IMG/VR virus record: IMGVR_UViG_3300049825_000110
Span: 1-39,649 of that record
DNA: 39,649 bases
DNA from: a virus
Direction: 5' to 3' (one strand)
In this document: piece by piece, positions 1,441 to 1,512 of the stretch
Position numbering within the stretch: the stretch's first letter is position 1
How the letters are laid out: each line of letters opens with the position of its first letter
Translations under genes and position numbers: made by a program
The notes under the pieces: generated by a model
What the model saw: the letters and a program-made list of their open reading frames with translations, nothing else
Told to the model about the DNA's origin: nothing
Databases searched by the model: none

Positions 1441-1512
1441 ATGTGGACAACACCAGCAGCTACTGAAATGCGTTTTGGCTTTGAAGTAACAATGTACGTA
1501 ATGAACAAGTAA
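1441..1512 (+). CDS. pqqA: PqqA, precursor peptide of pyrroloquinoline quinone
   Basis: A 23-residue peptide beginning [10 protein letters not shown] and containing RFGFEVTMY. In known PqqA peptides a Glu and a Tyr three residues apart in E-x-x-x-Y are crosslinked by the radical SAM enzyme PqqE with the chaperone PqqD, then trimmed and oxidised to PQQ. Here they are Glu15 and Tyr19. The aromatic-Gly-aromatic residues before the Glu, and a Trp near the N-terminus, also match the family, and the length is typical. The start has a good Shine-Dalgarno, GGAGA at 1430-1434, six bases before ATG. The gene stands alone with its own motif-type promoter upstream and a UUCG hairpin directly after it. 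No pqqB-E genes are in the window, so host enzymes would have to process it. Confidence 0.9.
   Translation: [23 protein letters not shown]

Follow-up and report, generated by a model that had tools for sequence, protein, structure and literature searches.

A linear virus record of 39,649 bases from IMG/VR (hereafter the window, meaning the whole stretch of DNA that was analysed) carries an intact gene for PqqA, the 23-residue precursor peptide of PQQ. The same record encodes terL, a portal protein, further structural proteins and an end piece of a DNA polymerase. Given terL, portal and DNA polymerase genes alongside it, and its presence in complete isolate genomes as well, pqqA is a metabolic gene of host origin in a genuine phage genome. 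We consider it probable that this intact, selected phage gene supplies extra PqqA in PQQ-dependent Methylophilaceae and would thereby sustain PQQ and methanol oxidation during infection. The gene and the features that surround it are as follows.

1326-1337, plus strand: TGTGCATTAGTA, an inexact match to TTTGCATTAGTA, the intergenic element of the lineage and probably related to a promoter (element search)
1374-1385, plus strand: TATGAATTAGTA, the weaker of the two element copies, located 55 nt upstream of the ATG (element search)
1384-1414, plus strand: putative 5'-leader hairpin in the interval from element to Shine-Dalgarno (fold; covariation suggestive)
1430-1433, plus strand: Shine-Dalgarno GGAG, 7 nt before the ATG (read from sequence)
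1441-1512, plus strand, stop codon included: pqqA, 23-aa PQQ precursor peptide (profile matches, host-identical peptide)
1520-1537, plus strand: 3' hairpin CGCACCCTTCGGGGTGCG (UUCG), terminator-like with a weak T tail (terminator scoring)
1599-2597, plus strand: 332-aa free-standing intein/homing-endonuclease-like protein, the next gene downstream of pqqA and the fixed neighbour that defines the site
2591-4030, plus strand: terL, the anchor for the window's lineage (terminase comparison)

The 23-codon frame lies exactly where the earlier note had placed it, and the identity proposed there is borne out by two curated profiles, both covered in full. Specifically, Pfam PF08042 matches the frame with an E value of 3e-10 (40.3 bits against a cut-off of 21.1), and the NCBIfam equivalog TIGR02107 matches it with an E value of 5.6e-10 (38.8 bits against a cut-off of 20). 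No other PqqA match occurs in the record. Each of the sequence hallmarks named in that note is present, including the E15-V-T-M-Y19 core, the preceding F12-G13-F14 and W2, such that both residues of the E-x-x-x-Y motif that become PQQ (E15 and Y19) are in place. Comparison with PqqA of Methylophilales, as the note had suggested, reveals complete identity, residue for residue, with the peptide of Methylotenera and Methylopumilus.

This identity agrees with the note's proposal of a methylotroph host, and pqqA, as the one line of evidence, points to a member of the Methylophilaceae. Between the coding DNA of the window's pqqA and the best Methylotenera host copies, identity amounts to 96-99%, and the similarity stops near the edges of the gene. 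DNA matches between the window and 187 Methylophilaceae genomes are only short and weak, and fall mostly in repetitive stretches; no CRISPR spacer or prophage match tying the window to a host was found. All 120 Methylophilaceae genomes searched carry pqqA, with a mean of 4.2 copies, a median of 4 and a maximum of 12, and such multicopy pqqA is already known in this family (PMC4109929). Host PqqA (Methylotenera, Methylopumilus and OM43) and phage PqqA thus share the same peptide and the same full profile match, and several dispersed copies are normal in the host. The inferred host family also possesses the pathway, with PqqE above cut-off in 112 of the 120 genomes and only a few carrying two, which speaks to the note's concern that the host might lack PQQ synthesis.

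Unlike host pqqA, the window's gene is viral, lacks pqqBCDE and sits beside an element of its phage lineage instead of a host promoter. PqqB, PqqC, PqqD and PqqE were not found in the window record, nor were they encoded near pqqA at the viral loci listed (0 of 135 and 0 of 227), whereas this was the case at 31 of 118 host loci. PqqE was likewise not found above cut-off in 37 longer viral records. Why, then, would a phage carry the precursor gene by itself? PqqA is consumed, one peptide for each PQQ, whereas PqqB through PqqE are reused. The supply of PqqA therefore scales with the amount of PQQ made, and the phage probably carries only the precursor gene because the enzymes need no such replenishment.

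In the mechanism that we propose, phage pqqA would add PqqA peptide inside a PQQ-dependent Methylophilaceae cell, where host PqqD would bind it, host PqqE would cross-link its Glu15 to Tyr19, and host PqqB and PqqC would complete PQQ. The cofactor would then keep the XoxF or MxaF methanol dehydrogenase active, and with it carbon and energy flow during phage replication. We infer that the gene is transcribed, that its product is processed by host enzymes, and that a higher PQQ level and a gain in fitness follow. One more copy might add little beside the several pqqA copies of the host, unless host transcription is shut off. Phage shutdown of host expression could cost the cell its PqqA supply first, and a 23-codon gene would be a cheap remedy. 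PqqA availability is called rate-determining in Methylovorus MP688, which has five pqqA copies, in a passage of a 2024 article that cites the original work (PMC11317620). Should the proposal be correct, viruses that infect abundant methylotrophs of aquatic habitats contribute the only consumable component of the PQQ pathway, a low-cost means for the upkeep of one-carbon metabolism. Phage pqqA also bears on the question of why hosts keep up to a dozen copies of this gene.

Other functions for the gene are less likely than precursor supply. PqqA could act outside PQQ synthesis, for example in lanthanide uptake, as suggested for the orphan copies of Methylobacterium, or as some other modified peptide. 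In M. extorquens, lanthanide supply affects the orphan genes pqqA2 and pqqA3, and a role of this kind was raised by the authors of that work (PMC11317620); the viral copies are orphans likewise. We regard such a role as unlikely, given that every PQQ-forming residue is kept, that a pqqE able to act on the peptide is present in the inferred host family, and that no PqqE-type modifying enzyme appeared above cut-off in the viral records searched.

The pattern of sequence change among viral copies reveals strong purifying selection and maintenance of pqqA in phages. Across the 23 codons, pN/pS is 0.16 for 111 of the at least 122 distinct viral coding sequences. Residues 13-19 are invariant by construction in this pattern-based set and were excluded as evidence; on codons outside those fixed by the search pattern the ratio is 0.24. 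Exactly the window's peptide is written by 21 distinct coding sequences among the viral copies listed. In the window's own lineage, whose members were gathered through their terminase and without reference to pqqA, pS is 0.32 and pN 0.016, a ratio of 0.05 over eight distinct copies that include the window's. ATG is the start codon of every short viral pqqA frame listed from the first IMG/VR scan, and a Shine-Dalgarno-like stretch precedes nearly all copies. Together, the profile scores, the identity with host PqqA, the synonymous-biased divergence and the conservation in terminase-found relatives exclude a chance frame, and the note's description of a working stand-alone gene is supported.

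These data also weigh on the view that a host pqqA was captured by recombination and is simply carried along without function. Host copies are dispersed and easily picked up, and a coding-sequence identity of 96-99% with the best Methylotenera copies, ending at the gene's edges, is what a recent capture would leave. A gene without function would hardly be expected to have a pN/pS of 0.05 in the window's lineage, however, or to be kept at one site across a clade of divergent terminases, with Shine-Dalgarno and ATG intact in viral copies, and to recur in unrelated isolates. We therefore judge a neutral passenger to be very unlikely.

The PQQ pathway depends on a peptide chaperone and a single radical-SAM enzyme, both of which might in principle be saturated by an excess of peptide, and phage PqqA might accordingly be a decoy that occupies PqqD and PqqE and lowers the level of mature PQQ. 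Yet its sequence is that of a normal substrate, and Glu15 and Tyr19, whose loss in related phages the note had named as evidence against its reading, are both kept in the 11 terminase-found relatives of the lineage. Moreover, the relative with five pqqA copies is described, in the passage cited above, as limited by PqqA and not as inhibited by it (PMC11317620). A brake on PQQ production is accordingly highly improbable, and supply of a usable precursor is the reading that we retain.

The signals around the gene mostly agree with the earlier description, in that the GGAG at 1430-1433 is a proper Shine-Dalgarno and the UUCG hairpin at 1520-1537 scores as terminator-like. A similar hairpin is also present in one relative (L247). 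The promoter-like motif did not stand as worded: no consensus sigma-70 promoter was found on the plus strand before pqqA, and two imperfect copies of TTTGCATTAGTA occupy this region instead. Matches to this element with at most two mismatches number 17 in the window against 7.0 expected, and none of 100 shuffles gave as many. Exact or near exact copies at 1326, 4049, 8125, 12615, 22179, 24698 and 31361 on the plus strand are spaced along the window upstream of genes, and a back-to-back pair occupies 22179-22209. We conclude that TTTGCATTAGTA is probably a phage promoter or regulatory element.

In most pqqA-bearing terL relatives, a second copy of the element lies nearer to pqqA and is followed by a small hairpin and then the Shine-Dalgarno. 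Relatives without pqqA usually have the element a few bases from the start codon of the gene that replaces it. The pairing of the 5' hairpin is well kept (93.6% of cells paired, with much lower values for slid controls), and one pair is changed on both sides in three sequences; an equally high pairing score was reached by 27 of 500 shuffles, and the covariation is suggestive only. The window yielded no tRNA or Rfam features. Least probable is a reading in which the locus acts chiefly through a small structured RNA with hairpins on its flanks, and less through the peptide, since despite hairpins on either side of the gene and a partly covarying 5' stem, in-frame changes are overwhelmingly synonymous, hairpin sequences vary between relatives while the peptide hardly does, and there is no Rfam match.

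The window's ATTAGT element occurs upstream of pqqA at only 2 of 332 viral pqqA loci listed. The rarity of a TTTGCATTAGTA-type element before pqqA in other viruses suggests that the gene is wired to local phage signals and was not transported with a host promoter. The same count led us to drop the idea that pqqA spreads as one mobile cassette with a shared leader. In addition, a close terL is present at only two loci listed (L018 and L499), and the upstream similarity seen in other phages is weak and AT-rich.

To define the distribution of the gene among known phages, PqqA was searched by tblastn over 50,697 phage records. Matches comprise nine records of Methylophilales isolates (P19250A, Venkman EXVC282S, MEP301, MEP401/402 and four Melnitz records), the environmental genome ctXG6705, a relative of Venkman, and two contigs labelled Acinetobacter phage. 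One of the latter, CAKLQF020000010.1 ('Acinetobacter phage MD-2021a'), was rejected because it carries pqqABCDE, fur and ppk, and is thus chromosomal and apparently mislabelled as phage; CAKLQH020000055.1 is a second record with this label and a PqqA match. All nine Methylophilales phage records found carry PqqA, 72.7-100% identical to the window's, and that of P19250A is identical. MEP431-434 and Venkman EXVC038S are named in the taxonomy and absent from all matches, so the nine records may not represent every Methylophilales phage. The search was sensitive enough to recover a 68%-identical PqqA on Burkholderia-group plasmids, and its matches did not include the Pelagibacter phages whose TerL is closely related to that of MEP301 or Venkman. 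Among sequenced phages, pqqA is confined to those of Methylophilales and to one relative of such a phage.

The isolates were compared by TerL, as single-linkage clustering on shared ORFs merged nearly everything and gave no lineage count. The TerL proteins of the window, P19250A, Venkman, MEP301 and MEP402 show no mutual blastp match at 1e-3, and Melnitz is filed as a kyanovirus, which indicates that pqqA is held by unrelated phages. No annotation of the nine records bears a pqqA label. The P19250A, Venkman, MEP301 and MEP402 deposits have no feature over the gene, and an antisense ORF is annotated across it in Melnitz (MZ577097.1, 76100-76195) and ctXG6705 (MW202481.1, 2067-2195). A 23-codon gene is under the size limit of many gene callers, and for this reason a frequent connection of viruses with methanol oxidation has escaped notice, even where isolate genomes were published.

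Three DNA-pattern scans of IMG/VR identified at least 347 distinct contigs with pqqA, and of the 240 matches listed in two scans of subsets, 236 are short frames that properly begin with ATG. Because these two subsets account for only 8 and 5 of the first 120 matches listed, the true number is probably above a thousand, a rough figure that includes redundancy and takes the viral nature of the contigs as catalogued. Seven loci (L003, L012, L017, L023, L024, L027 and L078) have PqqA variants unlike those of Methylophilaceae, which suggests that phages of other PQQ-using hosts carry the gene. On a 72-kb contig, IMGVR_UViG_3300025120_009955 (L042), pqqA is accompanied by a gene for a PQQ-dependent alcohol dehydrogenase of full length (608 bits).

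In the 11 pqqA-bearing relatives found through terL, pqqA lies 1.13-1.16 kb upstream of terL in ten cases and 1.5 kb upstream in one. The boundaries of this intergenic site are the TTTGCATTAGT element on one side and, on the other, the intein-like gene that precedes terL; the window and these 11 loci have pqqA there. The same site holds a 102-aa gene (MNKYVYQIQGAL...) in 57 loci of the terL group and is empty in L259; the upstream end of L323 is cut, which makes this locus uninformative. As an ORF beginning MNKYVYQIQGALENTAGRLTGLRVLVCD, the 102-aa gene lies about 1.24 kb upstream of terL in L274 and 56 other loci. The two genes never occur together in one terL-group locus. A single clade of 17 rows (98/94) contains every pqqA bearer of the group, together with one bearer of the 102-aa gene and the empty site. 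Most relatives in the wider terminase group lack pqqA, so that it appears dispensable there, a point against the proposed mechanism.

The intein-like neighbour of pqqA is not thought to be part of PQQ function. Its product matches what appears to be the intein region of terminase PHROG profiles (phrog_15, 4e-12) and, weakly, Pfam Hom_end. Wherever terL relatives include upstream sequence, a homologue is almost always present, with an identity of 41-94% compared with 87-99% for terL. By these comparisons, the protein appears to be a detached, fast-evolving relative of a terminase intein.

We tentatively propose, at somewhat less than even confidence, that pqqA is near-obligatory and systematically overlooked in phages of PQQ-dependent Methylophilaceae, that unrelated families acquired it repeatedly and each placed it under its own signals, and that the site upstream of terL in the window's lineage exchanges pqqA for another gene according to host.

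The earlier note was unsure whether phage pqqA had been described, and the answer is that it has. Contig VP_266 from Lake Baikal, reported in 2020, carries pqqA and a methanol dehydrogenase and was proposed to support methanol oxidation by Methylophilaceae (PMC7678222). A 2026 survey of reservoir sediment lists pqqA, pqqE and pqqD among virus-encoded genes and reads them as serving phosphate solubilisation (PMC13188868); this likeness to the window is by gene list, not by sequence. Phage pqqA as a kind is thus already known, whereas novelty apparently lies in its breadth, in its recurrence among unrelated phages and in the exchange site. VP_266 resembles the window as a methylotroph virus with pqqA, and L042 resembles VP_266 in having the gene beside a PQQ-dependent alcohol dehydrogenase. 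VP_266 is T4-like, whereas the window is of another type, with a TerL nearest to MW202545 and Caulobacter RLK-like phages, and no methanol dehydrogenase was noticed in it. The isolates P19250A, Venkman, MEP301, MEP401/402 and Melnitz share PqqA with the window, and those of their TerLs that were compared are unrelated to the window's. The Baikal study, which concerns one population, states that P19250A has none of these genes (PMC7678222). For pqqA, this statement is contradicted by the window-identical PqqA of that phage. The publications describing Melnitz, Venkman, MEP301 and MEP401/402 are silent on pqqA as a phage gene, and no report of pqqA in cultured phages was found in the open-licence literature.

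The window has several other features of note. A Cpn10/GroES-like protein is encoded at 8365-8808, and two genes of oxygenase type, for an aspartyl/asparaginyl hydroxylase and a 2OG-Fe(II) oxygenase, are located at 12070-12612 and 22220-22762. Several long inverted repeats are visible by eye in the intergenic interval 590-870, for example around 618-680 and 705-770.
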